Below are positions 30,617 to 37,141 of a stretch of 54,451 nucleotides of DNA, piece after piece. The stretch is from contig NZ_KE386495.1 of NCBI RefSeq assembly GCF_000427425.1, forward strand, positions 616,521-670,971, read 5' to 3'. Numbering within the stretch: the first letter of the stretch is position 1; every line of letters begins with the position of its first letter. Both the position numbers and the translations under genes were made by a program. This DNA is from Caldanaerobius polysaccharolyticus DSM 13641 (GTDB lineage Bacteria > Bacillota > Thermoanaerobacteria > Thermoanaerobacterales > Caldanaerobiaceae). Below the pieces are notes generated by a model. That model did not search any database. It worked only from the letters and a program-made list of their open reading frames with translations, and was not told the origin of the DNA.

Positions 30617-31945
30617 GTGCAGGTGAGGGTTCCACCCCATAACTTAGAAGCAGAAAAGGCGGTATTGGGTGCGATATTGTTAGAAAAAGATGTGATCGTG
30701 GACGTGGTGGAGCTATTAAAACCCGAAGATTTTTACAGAGAATCCCACAGCATAATATACAGGACTATACTGGAATTATACGATAAAAACCAGCCGGTAG
30801 ACCTGATCACCGTGACCGATGAATTAAATCAACGTAATCTTCTGGAAAAGGTGGGGGGAGCTGCTTATCTTACATCTCTGGTGGCAGGTGTCACCTCAAT
30901 ATCCAATGTAGAGCATTATTGCAGAATCATTGAAGAAAAAGCTGTGATGAGAAGGCTTATAAAGGCTTCTGCGGAAATCATGGATTCAGGGTACAATGAA
31001 TCCGATGACGTTGAAAACATCCTGGATGTGGCTGAGCAGAAGATATTTGATATAGCCCAAAGCCGTAACAGGCAGCCTTTTACTCCCATAAAAGACGTTT
31101 TGATAGAGACTATAGATCGCATAGATGAGCTTTATAAAAACAAAGGCAAAATCATAGGTCTTCCTTCGGGATTTGTGGACCTGGACATGAAAACATCAGG
31201 ATTTCAGCCTTCTGACCTGATACTAATAGCAGCGCGCCCCTCCATGGGTAAAACCGCTATTGCCATGAATATCGTAGAATACGTGGCCGTAAAACAAAAG
31301 GTGCCTGTTATGATATTCAGCTTGGAGATGTCCAAGCAGCAGCTGACTCAAAGGCTGCTTTGCTCCCTTTCTATGGTCGATAGCCATAAGCTAAGGATGG
31401 GGGATTTGACCGAGGAGGATTGGCCTAAATTAGCCGCTGCCGTAGGTGTGCTTTCCGATGCGCCCATTTACATTGACGATACTCCTGCAATTACCACCAT
31501 GGAAGTAAGGGCAAAGTGCAGGAGGCTCAAGCTGGAAAAGGGCCTGGGGTTGGTCGTGATAGATTACCTTCAGCTCATGCAGAGCAATAAGAAGGCCGAG
31601 AGCAGGCAACAGGAGGTATCGGATATATCCAGGTCTTTAAAGGCCTTAGCCAGGGAGATAGATGTGCCGGTCATAGCCCTTTCCCAATTGTCCAGAGCTC
31701 CTGAGACCAGATCTGACCACAGGCCCATGCTCAGCGACTTAAGGGAGTCTGGATCTATTGAGCAGGATGCGGACATCGTAATGTTTTTGTACAGGGAAGA
31801 TTACTACAACCCTGATACGGACAAAAAAAATATAGCTGAGGTCATTATAGCCAAGCAGCGCAATGGCCCTACGGGTACCGTAGAATTGGGATGGCTGGGT
31901 CAGTATACTAAATTTGTGAATTTAGCCAGAAACTTGAAAGAGTGA
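30617..31945 (+). CDS. dnaB: Replicative DNA helicase DnaB (DnaC in Bacillus)
   Basis: This 442-residue RecA-fold hexameric helicase has an N-terminal domain beginning RVPPHNLEAEKAVLGAILL, Walker A ARPSMGKTAIAMNI near residue 205, Walker B LVVIDYLQLM and the DnaB-specific LRESGSIEQDADIV. No intein is present. The start is GTG 30617, three bases after rplI, with GAGGGGGAA upstream. Confidence 0.97.
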   Translation: MQVRVPPHNLEAEKAVLGAILLEKDVIVDVVELLKPEDFYRESHSIIYRTILELYDKNQPVDLITVTDELNQRNLLEKVGGAAYLTSLVAGVTSISNVEHYCRIIEEKAVMRRLIKASAEIMDSGYNESDDVENILDVAEQKIFDIAQSRNRQPFTPIKDVLIETIDRIDELYKNKGKIIGLPSGFVDLDMKTSGFQPSDLILIAARPSMGKTAIAMNIVEYVAVKQKVPVMIFSLEMSKQQLTQRLLCSLSMVDSHKLRMGDLTEEDWPKLAAAVGVLSDAPIYIDDTPAITTMEVRAKCRRLKLEKGLGLVVIDYLQLMQSNKKAESRQQEVSDISRSLKALAREIDVPVIALSQLSRAPETRSDHRPMLSDLRESGSIEQDADIVMFLYREDYYNPDTDKKNIAEVIIAKQRNGPTGTVELGWLGQYTKFVNLARNLKE

Positions 31946-31949
31946 TGTT

Positions 31950-32627
31950 ATGGAGAAATGGGAGTATTTAAGGAGGATTCCTTTATTTAGCGATCTTAAG
32001 GAAGCGCTCATTAAGCAGATCGCTGATATAGCGACAATAAAAAACGTAAAAGAAGGGACGATAATTTTTCAGCAGGGCGATCCCGGTGAGGCTGTATACG
32101 TGGTCAAAGAGGGCAGCGTCAAGATATCCATGGTAGACGAGGATGGCAAGGAGTATATAATACACATAATGAAAGAAGGGGAGGTATTTGCCGAAGCTAC
32201 CTTGTTTAACAGCGGCCCATATCCTGCCAATGCGGAGGCGGTGGACGACGCGGCGCTTATAGTGCTTAATAACGCAAAGCTTGAAGACCTTATAAAGTCT
32301 AATAGCGAGCTGGCTTTAGAGCTTATAAAGGTCATGGCAAAGAGGTTACAGGATGTGAGCAAACAGATAAACAGCCTGGCTCTCAGGGATGCTATAGGGA
32401 GAACCATATCTGTGCTCATAAGGCTGGCAGAAGAAAAAGGGGAAAAGGTAGAGAAAGGGGTGGTAATTAAAGATATATCAAGGCAGGATCTGGCCAGCAT
32501 GGTGGGTACTACCCGGGAGACTGTAACCAGGATATTGAATCAGATGAGCAGGGGGAAACTTCTGGAATTAGACAGGCAGAAGATCATTATTAAGGATGTG
32601 AGAATGCTAAATTCTTATCTGAGGTGA
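31950..32627 (+). CDS. CRP/FNR family transcriptional regulator
   Basis: This 225-residue protein has an N-terminal cyclic-nucleotide-binding-fold domain (FQQGDPGEAVYVVKEGSVKI, then GEVFAEATLFNSGPYPANAEA) and a C-terminal winged helix with ISRQDLASMVGTTRETVTRIL. The phosphate-binding Arg-Ser/Thr of true CRP is replaced by Pro-Ala, so cAMP is unlikely as ligand. No cysteines are visible, so an FNR-type Fe-S cluster is also unlikely. It begins four bases after dnaB and five before the PspA cluster, which it may regulate. Confidence 0.88.
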   Translation: MEKWEYLRRIPLFSDLKEALIKQIADIATIKNVKEGTIIFQQGDPGEAVYVVKEGSVKISMVDEDGKEYIIHIMKEGEVFAEATLFNSGPYPANAEAVDDAALIVLNNAKLEDLIKSNSELALELIKVMAKRLQDVSKQINSLALRDAIGRTISVLIRLAEEKGEKVEKGVVIKDISRQDLASMVGTTRETVTRILNQMSRGKLLELDRQKIIIKDVRMLNSYLR

Positions 32628-32631
32628 TCGC

Positions 32632-33141
32632 ATGGGTTTTTTTGATTTCTTTAAGCCCAAAAAACAGGTAAAGGTGAGAAAGCGCAATTTTTTTAATATT
32701 CAGGTGGGAGATATAGTAACATATGACGATATAGATTATATCGTACAGCAGGTATTGGAGTACGTAGAAGATGGTTACAGGTGGTATGACTATCAAATAG
32801 TAGACAACGACCGAAGCCTTTGGCTGGGAGTCGATGATGATGACGGAGTAAAGCTGGCTATATACGAAGAAGTATATGACCTGAATGTGGATGGGTTTCC
32901 CAGAACCGTCAGCTATAAAGGCATTGAATATAAAAGGGTTGAAATGGGAGATGCCCATGTGGTGGCGAGATCTGATTACGCAGGAGACAGGGTGGTAAAC
33001 GTCAGGTATGCTGATTATGTGAGCGTAGATGGCAAAAAGTATTTATCACTAGAAGAATGGAATAATGAATATGAGGCCAGTATAGGATATCCCATAAAGC
33101 AGTTTCAGATAAAAATATTACCTGGGTTAAAGGAGGATTAG
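32632..33141 (+). CDS. DUF4178 domain protein
   Basis: This soluble 169-residue protein starts MGFFDFFKPKKQ and contains NIQVGDIVTYDDIDYIV, WYDYQIVDNDRSLWLGVDDDDG and KGIEYKR, a beta-rich pattern matching DUF4178. Family members recur beside PspA, DUF350 and membrane aminopropyltransferases. Its role is unknown; the context suggests envelope stress. The ATG follows GAGGTGAT, and it is two bases from pspA. Confidence 0.82.
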   Translation: MGFFDFFKPKKQVKVRKRNFFNIQVGDIVTYDDIDYIVQQVLEYVEDGYRWYDYQIVDNDRSLWLGVDDDDGVKLAIYEEVYDLNVDGFPRTVSYKGIEYKRVEMGDAHVVARSDYAGDRVVNVRYADYVSVDGKKYLSLEEWNNEYEASIGYPIKQFQIKILPGLKED

Positions 33142-33143
33142 CG

Positions 33144-33803
33144 ATGGGTATTTTTGAGAGAATCGCAATGCTGGTAAAGTCTAATATAAATGATCTCATA
33201 GACAGGGCCGAGGACCCTGAAAAAATGGCGAAACAGGTTATTGTAGAGCTGGAGGAGGCATTAGAGGAGGCAAAATCCGGTGTAGCAGCTGCTATTGCGG
33301 AAGAAAAACGCTTAAAAGCCTTAGTGGAAGAGCACAAGTATGAATCAGAGAAGTGGCAAGAAAGAGCAGAAAAAGCTGTGCTCAAAGGGGATGATGAGCT
33401 GGCAAAAGAAGCCCTTAGGCGCAAGAAAAGTCATGACCAAGATCTGGCTCATTTTACGGAACTCTATGAAAGACAGCAAAAACAGGTAGTGGAGATGAAA
33501 GAGAACCTTTATGAGCTGGAGAAAAAAATAGAGGATGCCAAAAGGAGAAGGGATACCCTTATAGCCAGGAATAGGGCCGCTGAAGCGCAGCGAAAGATAT
33601 CGCAGACGTTGGCTGCTGCAGGCAAGAAAAACCCTATGGATATATTGGAAAAAATGGAGGAAAAAGTGGAGAGAATAGAGGCTGAAGCTCAGGTTTATGA
33701 AGAGATGGAAAAAGATACGTTGGAGGAAAAGTTCAAGGCATTAGACGAAGAAGACGATGTGGATAAAGATCTGGCGGAGCTCAAGAAAAAATTGGGCAAA
33801 TAG
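33144..33803 (+). CDS. pspA: Phage-shock protein A / IM30 family protein
   Basis: This 219-residue, almost wholly alpha-helical protein has the PspA start MGIFERIAMLVKSNINDLID, then EDPEKMAKQVIVELEEAL, and long coiled coils rich in E, K and A. Family members are bacterial ESCRT-III relatives that form rods on stressed membranes. No PspF-type regulator is adjacent; the CRP-like gene two positions upstream is the obvious candidate. RBS AAGGAGG. Confidence 0.95.
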   Translation: MGIFERIAMLVKSNINDLIDRAEDPEKMAKQVIVELEEALEEAKSGVAAAIAEEKRLKALVEEHKYESEKWQERAEKAVLKGDDELAKEALRRKKSHDQDLAHFTELYERQQKQVVEMKENLYELEKKIEDAKRRRDTLIARNRAAEAQRKISQTLAAAGKKNPMDILEKMEEKVERIEAEAQVYEEMEKDTLEEKFKALDEEDDVDKDLAELKKKLGK

Positions 33804-33821
33804 CCATATGGGTGAAATTAT

Positions 33822-34307
33822 ATGGATTACTTTGCATTTATGGAAAAGGTATTTCCAGTTGTACTTATTATAGTAGTGATTGTAGTGGTATTTTCAACGT
33901 TTGGTTTCGGAAAGGCCACAAGTGTTCAGCTTAGCAAGATGTTCGTACCTGTCACTGATACTAGTCGATTAATAGTCAATGGATCTACTTATACCAACAC
34001 AAATGAGAAGATATACTTTTCAAATGCCGATGTCAAGACCACCTTTGACAAAATACAATCTGTAAGCAAGCCTCAGAGCGCTGATTTAGGGGAAATTGCA
34101 GTTATGAAGTACGGAAAAACTTACTTTATACTGCAGAGCGCTTCATATAAGGGCGTTAACGGCACGGCGATCTTTGTAAACACGGAGCGAGAAGCATATC
34201 AATGGCATTACCCGTATATGGTAGACCTCTTCGGTGGCGGTAGGATAAGGCCTGGCAGCTTCGGATTTCCCTCTGTGAGAGGTGGAGGCATTGGAGCTGG
34301 AAAGTAA
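33822..34307 (+). CDS. Membrane-anchored protein of the PspA cluster (possibly DUF4247-like)
   Basis: This 161-residue protein has one N-terminal hydrophobic helix (VFPVVLIIVVIVVVFSTFGFG) and then a predicted extracytoplasmic domain. It ends in a glycine-rich tail (GGGRIRPGSFGFPSVRGGG). I recognise it only tentatively as DUF4247-like. The placement between pspA and DUF350 makes a membrane-surface role in the same response likely. Small Gly/Pro/Arg-rich tails like this are often disordered. Confidence 0.6.
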   Translation: MDYFAFMEKVFPVVLIIVVIVVVFSTFGFGKATSVQLSKMFVPVTDTSRLIVNGSTYTNTNEKIYFSNADVKTTFDKIQSVSKPQSADLGEIAVMKYGKTYFILQSASYKGVNGTAIFVNTEREAYQWHYPYMVDLFGGGRIRPGSFGFPSVRGGGIGAGK

Positions 34308-34324
34308 GAGGGGGAGGTGATATA

Positions 34325-34528
34325 ATGAACCTATGGGACCAAATCTTATCAACGCTTATATTCGGCTTTATTGGGATATTTCTGATGGGTATAGCTTATA
34401 AAATCATGGATAGGTTTATACCTGCAGATTTAAATAAAGGCATTGAAGAGGGTAATTTAGCTGCGGGTGTGGTGATTGCAGGTATCTTTATAGGCATAGG
34501 TATAATCGTAGCTTATGCTATAGCTTAG
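34325..34528 (+). CDS. DUF350 small membrane protein
   Basis: This 67-residue protein has two membrane segments (LIFGFIGIFLMGIAYKIMDR and AAGVVIAGIFIGIGIIVAYAI) and a polar loop containing the DUF350-like LNKGIEEGNLAAG. E. coli YjfL, beside the PspA paralogue YjfJ and the glutathionylspermidine-synthetase-like YjfC, is of the same family. It usually occurs as a two- or four-helix protein of unknown function. GGGGGAGGTGAT precedes the ATG. Confidence 0.88.
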   Translation: MNLWDQILSTLIFGFIGIFLMGIAYKIMDRFIPADLNKGIEEGNLAAGVVIAGIFIGIGIIVAYAIA

Positions 34529-34540
34529 GGAGGTATATTT

Positions 34541-36043
34541 TTGGCAAAGATCCGCGCGTTGCTGATCTCTGTTTTCTTAGTAGCGTTGTGTGGTATCGTT
34601 TATGAGCTTTCTATAGGCAATGTATCCACATACCTTTTGGGCAACAGCGTATTGCAGTATTCTCTTACTATCGGGTTTTTTATGTTTTCAATGGGAATAG
34701 GTTCATATCTGTCAAAATATATAAAAAGCGAATTAATAAGTATTTTTATATACATTGAATTGTCAATTGCAGCTGTTGGCGGTACTTCCTCTGTACTGCT
34801 CTTTTATTCTTATGGCTTTACTAACATTTATACAATGGTCATGATATTGATAACAGCCATTATAGGTATTATGGAAGGGCTTGAGATACCTGTAATAACC
34901 AGGATTATTGAGGAAAATTACAGAGATATTAAGATAAGCTTATCCCATGTGCTAAGCTTTGATTACCTCGGTGCACTTATAGGATCTTTGGCTTTTTCTC
35001 TGGTTTTGATCCCTCGGCTGGGGATAATTACGACGCCTTTTGTGTTTGCCCTTTTAAATCTTTTTGTAGCAGCTATAAACATATGGGTTTTTTATAGTGA
35101 AGTGAAAAGGCGCAGGTGGTTGGTTGTATCGGCGGCGATTACCGGTATAATATTAGTTGCAGGGATTATTTTTTCGCCTAAGATTAGCAATGTGTTGGAG
35201 CAAAAATTGTACAGCGATCCTGTGGTTCTGGTAAAGCAGACACCGTATCAAAAGCTGGTTATAACCAGAAGAGGGGACGATCTGCGGCTTTACATAGATG
35301 GAAATCTGCAGTTTAGCTCAGTGGATGAATACAGATATCATGAAGCCTTAGTGCTGCCGGCCATGAGCCTTCTAAAGGATAGAAGCCATGTGCTGATAAT
35401 AGGCGGTGGGGATGGTTTAGCTGCCAGAGAGGTATTGAAATACGACGATGTCAAGAGTATAACACTGGTGGATCTGGATAAAGGCATGACTGATTTGTTT
35501 TCAAAGGATGGAGATCTCATAGAGTACAACAAAAATTCCTTAAATAACCCTAAAGTAAATATAGTGAATCAGGATGGATTTAAATACCTGGAGAAAACAA
35601 AAAATCATTTTAACTTTATTATAGTAGATCTTCCCGATCCCAACAGTGAAGAGTTATCCAGGCTATACTCTCTGAGTTTTTACCGATTGATGAAGAAGCA
35701 TCTTACCGATGATGGCATTGCTGTCGTCCAGAGTACATCGCCATATTTTGCGCCTAAGGTCTTTTGGTCTATAAACAAGACCATAAAAGCAGCAGGCTTG
35801 AATGTGTATCCATACCACCTAAATGTGCCTTCATTTGGCGATTGGGGCTTTAATATGGCGTCAAAGAAGAAATTAAACATAGATGACATAAAGGTCAGAG
35901 TAAAAACCCGCTATCTTGATGATCAGGTGATTAAGGCCATGTTTTCCTTTGGGAAAGACGAAATGGCATCGGATGTAGGCATAAACAGGATTACCAATCC
36001 CATCATTTTACGGTATTACCAGGAGAGCTGGAAGCATTGGTGA
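34541..36043 (+). CDS. Membrane-fused polyamine aminopropyltransferase (spermidine synthase-like)
   Basis: The 500 residues comprise about seven N-terminal membrane helices and a C-terminal spermidine-synthase domain (from about residue 215). Catalytic elements are intact: Q-F-SS-VDEYRYHEAL, the SAM-type loop IIGGGDGLAARE, VDLD, and the aspartate pair in VDLPDP with QDGFKYL before it. Family enzymes transfer aminopropyl groups from decarboxylated SAM. No speD is in this window, so the donor source is unknown. TTG 34541 follows GGGAGG. It is the last member of the PspA cluster. Confidence 0.88.
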   Translation: MAKIRALLISVFLVALCGIVYELSIGNVSTYLLGNSVLQYSLTIGFFMFSMGIGSYLSKYIKSELISIFIYIELSIAAVGGTSSVLLFYSYGFTNIYTMVMILITAIIGIMEGLEIPVITRIIEENYRDIKISLSHVLSFDYLGALIGSLAFSLVLIPRLGIITTPFVFALLNLFVAAINIWVFYSEVKRRRWLVVSAAITGIILVAGIIFSPKISNVLEQKLYSDPVVLVKQTPYQKLVITRRGDDLRLYIDGNLQFSSVDEYRYHEALVLPAMSLLKDRSHVLIIGGGDGLAAREVLKYDDVKSITLVDLDKGMTDLFSKDGDLIEYNKNSLNNPKVNIVNQDGFKYLEKTKNHFNFIIVDLPDPNSEELSRLYSLSFYRLMKKHLTDDGIAVVQSTSPYFAPKVFWSINKTIKAAGLNVYPYHLNVPSFGDWGFNMASKKKLNIDDIKVRVKTRYLDDQVIKAMFSFGKDEMASDVGINRITNPIILRYYQESWKHW

Positions 36044-36055
36044 GGAGGTTTTTAT

Positions 36056-37141
36056 ATGAAAAATATCAAATTAGGATTTATAGGGCTTGGTTACATAGGG
36101 AAAATACACGCCATTGCATGTTTCGCCATGCCATTGGTTTTCCCAGATTTACCTTTTAAGGTGATTTTAGGGCCTGTTTTCAAAAGAAATTTATCCTCGG
36201 TTCCTTATTTTTTTGAAAGATGCGCTGAAAGCGTCGATGATCTTTTAAACACGGAAGACCTTGTGGCGGTAGATATATGCACTCCTAATTACGTGCACTT
36301 AGATGAAGCTATGAAGGCCATTGACAGGGGACTTGATATTTACCTGGAAAAGCCTATAGGTTTAAACGGGGATGAGGCTTTTAAAATAATGGAGAGCGCA
36401 AAGAAAAAAGGCGTCATAAATCAGACCGCTCTTATGTACCGGTTTATGCCCGCAGTGGCTCAAGCCAGGGATATGATAAACAACGGTGAAATAGGGCAGA
36501 TTTTAAATTTCAAAGCCACTATGTTGCATTCCGGTTATCTGGACCCGCTGCGACCTATATCGTGGAAGCTAAAAAAAGCCACGAGCGGAGGCGGTGCTAT
36601 ACTGGATATGGGCATTCACCTGGTAGATGCGGTGAGGTTTATGTTAGGAGAGATTAAGTCTTTGAAAGCTGAGTCCAGGACGTATTTTAAAGAGAGGCCC
36701 TCTCATGGTGCTGGCGTTTTGGAGGAAGTTGATGTGGACGATTGGACTGCTGTAGACGTGGAACTTAAGTCAGGTGCGTGGGGCCGCATAGAAGCCTCTA
36801 GAATATCTGCGGAAATGGAGGAAGAAACCCGCTTTGAGATATATGGGACCTATGGCTCTATAAAGATTTCTACAAAGCGGCCTGAATACGCTGTTTTGTA
36901 TAAAAAGCGAGAAAATGCGGTGTTCTCAGGGATATACGGCGGCGAGGGTCCTTTTACGAGGTATCTGAGGGGCATTTATCCTGGAGAGAAGTTTTCCATG
37001 GGGTATATGGTGAACATGCACATGGCAAGTCTTATAAATTTTTTTACAAATATCGCGGAAGGCAAGGTGGTCTATCAGGAGACGCCTACATTTAAAGAAG
37101 CGTATAAAGATCAGCTGATTATCGACGAGGTACTTAAGTAG
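36056..37141 (+). CDS. Gfo/Idh/MocA family oxidoreductase
   Basis: This 361-residue NAD(P)-dependent dehydrogenase has an N-terminal Rossmann motif GFIGLGYIGKIHAIA, the catalytic-lysine motif DIYLEKPIG and, in the C-terminal domain, GGGAILDMGIHLVDAVRFMLG with the conserved Asp and His. The family oxidises sugars, inositols and related compounds; the substrate cannot be read from sequence. It begins 13 bp after the aminopropyltransferase with GAGGAGG, so it may be co-transcribed, though a role in the same response is not obvious. Confidence 0.9.
   Translation: MKNIKLGFIGLGYIGKIHAIACFAMPLVFPDLPFKVILGPVFKRNLSSVPYFFERCAESVDDLLNTEDLVAVDICTPNYVHLDEAMKAIDRGLDIYLEKPIGLNGDEAFKIMESAKKKGVINQTALMYRFMPAVAQARDMINNGEIGQILNFKATMLHSGYLDPLRPISWKLKKATSGGGAILDMGIHLVDAVRFMLGEIKSLKAESRTYFKERPSHGAGVLEEVDVDDWTAVDVELKSGAWGRIEASRISAEMEEETRFEIYGTYGSIKISTKRPEYAVLYKKRENAVFSGIYGGEGPFTRYLRGIYPGEKFSMGYMVNMHMASLINFFTNIAEGKVVYQETPTFKEAYKDQLIIDEVLK

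Follow-up and report, generated by a model that had tools for sequence, protein, structure and literature searches.

Background

The closest described relatives of the system considered here are operons of a group reported by Ravi et al. (2024; PMC11237479), in which PspA occurs together with DUF4178, DUF350, a lipoprotein, a spermidine synthase fused to seven transmembrane helices and, usually, a CesT/Tir-like gene; the Shewanella genes AAN56744-AAN56747 are an example. That paper speculates on the concentration of polyamines at the membrane, and also raises the possibility that other substrates are aminopropylated, with reference to Li et al. (2019; Biochem J 476:2579). A second point of reference is provided by the Escherichia coli proteins YjfM and YgiB, which adjoin YjfC and YgiC, the latter pair bearing the RefSeq name of peptide-spermidine ligases (Pederick et al. 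2023, as cited in PMC12568646). The present work concerns positions 31,950 to 36,043 of a 54,451-nucleotide stretch of the genome of Caldanaerobius polysaccharolyticus DSM 13641 (contig NZ_KE386495.1; the whole stretch is referred to below as the window), where the genes for a DUF4178 protein, PspA, a membrane-anchored protein, a DUF350 protein and an aminopropyltransferase domain fused to a seven-helix membrane domain (SPE) follow a CRP-like regulator. This cassette belongs to the published group of operons.

The comparative analysis described below makes it about an even bet that the cassette is a surface polyamine-modification module, in which an outward-facing SPE would aminopropylate the lysine that ends the exported tail of the anchored protein. 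This reading is drawn from sequence comparison and predicted structures. Neither the rule followed by the tails and its tie to SPE, nor the outward topology, nor the resemblance to systems in which ligases neighbour Gly-Gly tails was found in the parts of the literature examined.

Results

The anchored protein and its C-terminal tail

The initial annotation of the locus treated the anchored protein as incidental, but it proves to be the most informative part of the cassette. The features on which the argument turns are as follows.

33822..34307, + strand: membrane-anchored protein, 161 residues, with a divergent DUF4247-like domain (sub-threshold Pfam match); the proposed substrate
34233..34304, + strand: C-terminal tail of the anchored protein, GGGRIRPGSFGFPSVRGGGIGAGK-COOH, identified by the tail rule; its last Lys is the proposed acceptor
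34541..36043, + strand: SPE, aminopropyltransferase domain fused to a seven-helix membrane domain, 500 residues, TTG start (Pfam Spermine_synth 3.9e-42; NCBIfam PRK03612 5.5e-194)

The feature common to the anchored proteins linked to SPE is the C-terminus, a flexible tail of Gly, Ser and Arg that ends in Gly-Lys or His-Lys, and the same end is found on carriers that are otherwise unrelated: DUF4247-like proteins, lipoproteins, DUF4178 fusions and bare membrane helices of 50-70 residues. The tails of Bacillota follow the pattern (V/I)RxGS...GGG...GK; Campylobacterota and Gammaproteobacteria have a bare helix plus tail of 49-68 residues ending in GK; Acidobacteria and Gemmatimonadota have SVRDNPGxYR...GGK or YHK; HK ends the tails of Betaproteobacteria and Bacteroidota, which are Gly/Ser-rich or polar; and a distinct 510-residue lipoprotein encoded in an Alteromonas plasmid cluster likewise ends in RGPSSGK. 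The DUF4247 assignment of the window's own protein, at 13.4 bits against a Pfam gathering score of 27, is below threshold. Tail proteins at four loci (L046, L047, L050 and L051) bear a lipobox, which marks them as exported, and in the AlphaFold2 model of a homologue in which the tail is fused to DUF4178 the last 11 residues have a pLDDT (predicted local distance difference test) below 50, which is consistent with a flexible tail. The folds of DUF4178 and of the tail domain gave no confident match in the PDB (best template modelling score about 0.1); two structure models were built on 12 and 15 sequences.

The frequency of such tails was evaluated in a survey of SPE loci, for which a profile search found relatives in at least 582 of 588 pattern matches among GTDB representative genomes. 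The locus counts refer to the best 80 loci, which are spread over many phyla, plus loci found earlier, and so describe a non-random sample (n=87 loci, of which the neighbourhood is taken as the region within 6.5 kb of a full-length SPE); L055 and L074 share one sequence. In its strict form the rule requires an end in [GH]K, a last 20 residues rich in Gly, Ser, Asn and Thr, and a membrane helix ahead of them. Such a tail is present on the SPE strand in 52/87 loci, one of which (L098) is uncertain because the open reading frame (ORF) of the tail overlaps the SPE start. Elsewhere the strict pattern occurs in seven opposite-strand ORFs in all, several of which probably represent real tails in divergent operons, so that the seven are not all noise, and in 1 of 542 genes more than 4 kb away. 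Inspection of the remaining loci added 22 tails, giving 74/87, and a tail accompanies SPE in 72 of the 73 loci that have DUF4178 or DUF350 in the neighbourhood, the sole exception being L119, where SPE lies 1.4 kb from the contig end. Since this relaxed count was made after the pattern had been seen, two homology controls must be given more weight.

Both controls use a tail-blind profile, generated from the anchored domain after trimming of the tail, which found 35 homologues. All 31 of those beside SPE end in GK; 19 of these are seeds picked among GK-ending proteins (including the window's protein, which matches the trimmed profile with an E-value of 1e-18) and 12 are independent. The four in genomes that lack SPE all end in RRR or GRR, and they belong to Paenibacillus-like DUF4178-DUF350-PspA-lipoprotein operons in genomes with soluble SpeE only. 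With a terminal Lys only when SPE is present, the partner tail is a concrete and testable candidate for the acceptor. These controls also bear on the proposal that SPE aminopropylates a membrane lipid amine and thereby alters surface charge, the tail protein sensing or presenting the lipid. The presence of a membrane-bound SPE beside the membrane-remodelling PspA would suit such a role, but none of the operons read contained a recognisable lipid enzyme, and neither the terminal Lys nor its loss in the absence of SPE would be explained, so that the proposal is very unlikely.

Fold, active site and predicted orientation of SPE

The AlphaFold2 model of SPE (pLDDT 90.3) consists of seven helices followed by a full SpeE domain, and the list of structural matches is filled by the SpeE domain (1uir, Z 35, root-mean-square deviation 2.0 over 272 residues), which left the membrane domain without an informative hit. 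SPE carries the Spermine_synth domain, the catalytic Asp pair and the site for decarboxylated AdoMet (dcAdoMet) that characterize the aminopropyltransferase (SpeE) fold family. Its catalytic and donor-site residues Y266/H267/E268, D311, D363, D366, Q257 and W435 are invariant in 85/85 members, and D291 and D345 are conserved in 84/85. The description of the protein in the initial annotation as a catalytically intact aminopropyltransferase with seven membrane helices is therefore borne out, and dcAdoMet is the likely donor, since SpeD occurs in the neighbourhood of 38/87 loci.

The accompanying label of “polyamine synthase” is more doubtful. The genome has a separate soluble SpeE-SpeB-SpeD pathway, so SPE is not needed for spermidine, bulk spermidine synthesis is unlikely to be its purpose, and the evidence points instead to an extracytoplasmic acceptor. 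The SPE-type fusion studied by Li and colleagues reportedly gives no complementation of a mutant in spermidine synthase, and its aminopropyl group may go to a different substrate. Another possibility is a free polyamine, either spermidine or something unusual, that SPE synthesises at the membrane or exports there, with the GK tail as a structural or docking partner and not a substrate. The ordinary SpeE fold with its conserved acceptor-side residues would fit this role, as would the published speculation about membrane polyamines, but the same source (PMC11237479) raises other substrates as well, free polyamines are already supplied by the soluble pathway, and docking does not explain why a terminal Lys is found on unrelated carriers; this explanation is judged unlikely.

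A second SpeD in the genome (G000:C3:1206199) is not supported as the donor enzyme of the cassette, since it sits among phage-like genes. This SpeD-like gene lies directly 3' of an ATP-grasp gene (region L068:8871-10576; G000:C3 ~1204871-1206576), amid genes for holin, amidase and ribonucleotide reductase. Phage homologues of SpeD can be arginine or ornithine decarboxylases, according to the abstract of PMC10407285, so the activity of this one is uncertain.

The orientation of SPE was assessed from the distribution of positive charge. The mean number of Lys and Arg residues is 10.0 in the N-terminus and loops 2-3, 4-5 and 6-7, versus 1.6 in loops 1-2, 3-4 and 5-6, and the odd-loop count exceeds the even-loop count in 85/85 members. 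Seven helices combined with this charge pattern place the catalytic domain outside. In addition, an FAD oxidoreductase with a twin-arginine (Tat-type) signal adjoins SPE (26 of 27 matches, in 26 loci; the example from Novosphingobium reads TRRQVLAGAAVGAGATALLGGC), and the same operon would thus send an amine-oxidase-like enzyme outside. The same tail lysine might alternatively be modified by a catalytic domain that lies in the cytoplasm and acts before export of the tail. Availability of dcAdoMet in that compartment speaks for this arrangement, as do YjfC and YgiC, which are annotated as soluble-type ligases and adjoin exported lipoproteins whose tails they may modify; it conflicts, however, with the helix number and charge bias of all 85 members and with the Tat-exported oxidase partners, and is quite unlikely.

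Genes associated with SPE

The commonest neighbours of SPE are DUF4178 (69/87 loci) and DUF350 (66/87), followed by SpeD (38/87); a KCH-type potassium channel is present in 9/87. PspA is near SPE in only 15/87 loci, and was rejected as an obligatory core partner. SPFH proteins are found in 21/87, none of them a PspA locus, and from these counts and their lack of overlap PspA is best regarded as a lineage-dependent partner, with SPFH as its alternate. The pattern suggests that the two are interchangeable membrane scaffolds near SPE.

Several further observations concern the neighbouring genes themselves. Long DUF4178 proteins of about 430-450 residues (L096, L110, L117 and L121) comprise a zinc ribbon, DUF4178, a helix, a beta-rich domain and a second helix; in many the C-terminus is an acidic EDDDE-like tail, and the proteins look like membrane-spanning sensors or scaffolds. 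In operons with a DUF4178-tail fusion, a zinc-ribbon-like protein of 103-111 residues with two Cys pairs is encoded directly 5' of SpeD (L065:10855-11190, L070:5619-5930). The Solitalea locus L128 has duplicated genes for DUF4178, DUF350 and a 53-residue tail protein, both tails ending in SGYTRSYYHK. On the Alteromonas mediterranea plasmid pAMCP48-600 (L162), SPE is grouped with SpeD, a TelA-like toxic anion resistance protein, DUF4178, the GK-ending lipoprotein of 510 residues and DUF350.

Extent of the cassette

The remaining genes of the locus and its flanks are listed below.

30617..31945, + strand: dnaB, left flank of the insertion context
31950..32627, + strand: CRP/FNR-family regulator (Pfam cNMP_binding and HTH_Crp_2), vertically inherited beside dnaB and outside the cassette
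32632..33141, + strand: DUF4178 protein, 169 residues, predicted cytoplasmic, beta-rich (Pfam DUF4178 3.5e-27)
33144..33803, + strand: PspA/IM30 protein, 219 residues (Pfam PspA_IM30 3.2e-47; 161.4 bits, over the gathering score)
34325..34528, + strand: half-length DUF350 membrane protein, 67 residues (Pfam DUF350 2.2e-14)
36056..37141, + strand: Gfo/Idh/MocA oxidoreductase, right flank; directly 3' of CRP in sister genome G001

The locus had been described as six tightly spaced co-directional genes. The ORFs and their spacing (4, 2, 18, 17 and 12 nucleotides, 5' to 3') are real, but the co-directional run continues past both borders, with gaps of 4 nucleotides between dnaB and CRP and 12 between SPE and Gfo/Idh, and the unit is one of five genes, DUF4178-PspA-anchored protein-DUF350-SPE, not six. 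The sister genome G001 has the order rplI-dnaB-CRP-Gfo-MBL-AsnB-MFS, which is that of the window minus exactly the five cassette genes; CRP is a neighbour of dnaB throughout the order, a CRP match being present in 20/21 genomes and the two genes being adjacent in 5/5 relatives whose region was read. As the G001 site is empty between CRP and Gfo and CRP is widespread, CRP is the resident gene and the five genes were inserted, or were lost in the other genomes. DUF4178 has no match in 40 relatives, including the sister species of the genus; PspA is single-copy in the genome of the window and was not found in G001. The cassette is slightly more AT-rich than its flanks (GC content 0.404 versus 0.443 and 0.453), and a near-identical order, DUF4178-PspA-anchored protein-half DUF350-SPE, recurs at locus L049, where SPE is 51% identical. 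A promoter scan gave 20 sites versus 13 expected, a difference that is not informative.

The inclusion of CRP in the system cannot be sustained: it is ancestral to the site, is kept without the cassette and was not found at any other surveyed SPE locus. Tight spacing, and the position of CRP directly upstream, where it may be co-transcribed with the cassette, fit the original model of a six-gene, CRP-controlled envelope-repair operon, and local co-regulation is possible, but as a conserved unit that operon is refuted and the model as a whole is extremely improbable. Linkage of DUF4178, DUF350 and SPE does recur across the survey; linkage of all six genes does not. The regulator does, as first described, lack residues for binding cAMP or an Fe-S cluster: it has no cysteine, and in place of the Arg-Ser pair after the GE motif it reads GEVFAEATLFNSGPYPANAEA.

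Discussion

In the proposed mechanism, the spermidine-synthase fold of SPE, carried on its seven-helix membrane domain, would face outward and move an aminopropyl group from dcAdoMet to the side-chain amine of the tail's C-terminal Lys. The Lys side chain presents the same four-carbon amine as putrescine, and the product would be a membrane-tethered tail capped by a spermidine-like group. DUF350, the SPE membrane domain or both may provide membrane passage for the donor, which would have to be supplied outside, or for the product; DUF4178 may serve as an adaptor in the cytoplasm, and the membrane-scaffold partner on that side may be PspA or, elsewhere among the phyla, an SPFH protein. Any benefit might come under envelope stress.

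Several considerations weigh against this proposal. The outward topology is derived from a predicted model together with the positive-inside rule. The donor dcAdoMet is made in the cytoplasm, and to our knowledge no outward route for it has been described. At eight SPE loci whose flanking sequence is ample, neither a recognisable tail nor a nearby DUF4178 or DUF350 is present. The tail rule fails at least at the mycobacterial DUF4247 protein Rv2599, which appears to end in ...GDDA, judging from a primer published in PMC3726780. Finally, conservation of the terminal Lys might instead reflect a role in docking or sorting. It is a tentative generalization, with a little less than an even chance, that an aminopropyltransferase acting outside the cytoplasm is present in bacteria of many phyla and modifies the last Lys of a dedicated tail protein anchored at the surface.

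If the proposal is true, C-terminal N-epsilon-aminopropyl-lysine would be a new post-translational modification, the widespread family of membrane-fused spermidine synthases would gain its missing acceptor, and the carboxyl-directed peptide-spermidine ligases would have an amine-directed counterpart. The rule also brings into view, as likely substrates, many tiny ORFs, some of them unannotated or named “hypothetical”.

Comparison with known systems

The link to PspA, the membrane polyamine-type chemistry and the analogy with E. coli yjfIJKLMC noted at the outset are real, and the association had been published (PMC11237479). As in the operons of that account, the window has DUF4178, PspA, an anchored protein, DUF350 and the seven-helix SPE in one operon; unlike them, positions 31950-36043 hold no CesT/Tir-like (YjfI/DUF2170) ORF, and DUF350 is half-length. 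The flanks are dnaB/CRP and Gfo/Idh. The available account of the group does not mention the GK rule, the outward topology or the Tat oxidase. The mycobacterial DUF2617/DUF4247 cluster in the same source (CCP45394/CCP45395, Rv2599 being the DUF4247 protein) also places DUF4247 in a polyamine-gene setting, but it has no PspA, and Rv2599 seems to lack the GK end. SPE shares its fold and its donor-site and catalytic residues with Thermus thermophilus SpeE (1uir), from which it differs in its fusion to seven membrane helices, in its conserved DLPDPN and PSFGxWGF motifs and in not being the housekeeping enzyme.

The most instructive comparison is with yjfIJKLMC and ygiBC, in which a DUF1190 lipoprotein is paired with an ATP-grasp ligase, and the first of which also carries PspA and DUF350. 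No DUF1190/ligase system was found in the 22 SPE genomes tested. Here, as there, an exported Gly/Ser/Arg tail with an RGG motif lies beside a polyamine enzyme, and the cassette shows what is proposed to mark the YjfM/YjfC-like kind: a Gly/Ser-rich tail is exported, and its last residue is conserved and fits the adjacent enzyme. The tails of YjfM and YgiB both end in Gly-Gly, and an RGG[FWY]G motif followed by a GG end is found in 10 of 11 DUF1190 proteins (that of Vibrio campbellii ends in GS). In the E. coli systems a Gly-Gly end is thus found with an ATP-grasp ligase that joins spermidine to a carboxyl group, whereas here a Gly-Lys end is found with an aminopropyltransferase, which acts on amines. 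By analogy, a terminal Gly would suit the carboxyl-acting ligase and a terminal Lys the amine-acting aminopropyltransferase, and the two operon families would then be joined by a common theme, that of polyamine-capped surface tails coupled to membrane maintenance by PspA or SPFH proteins.

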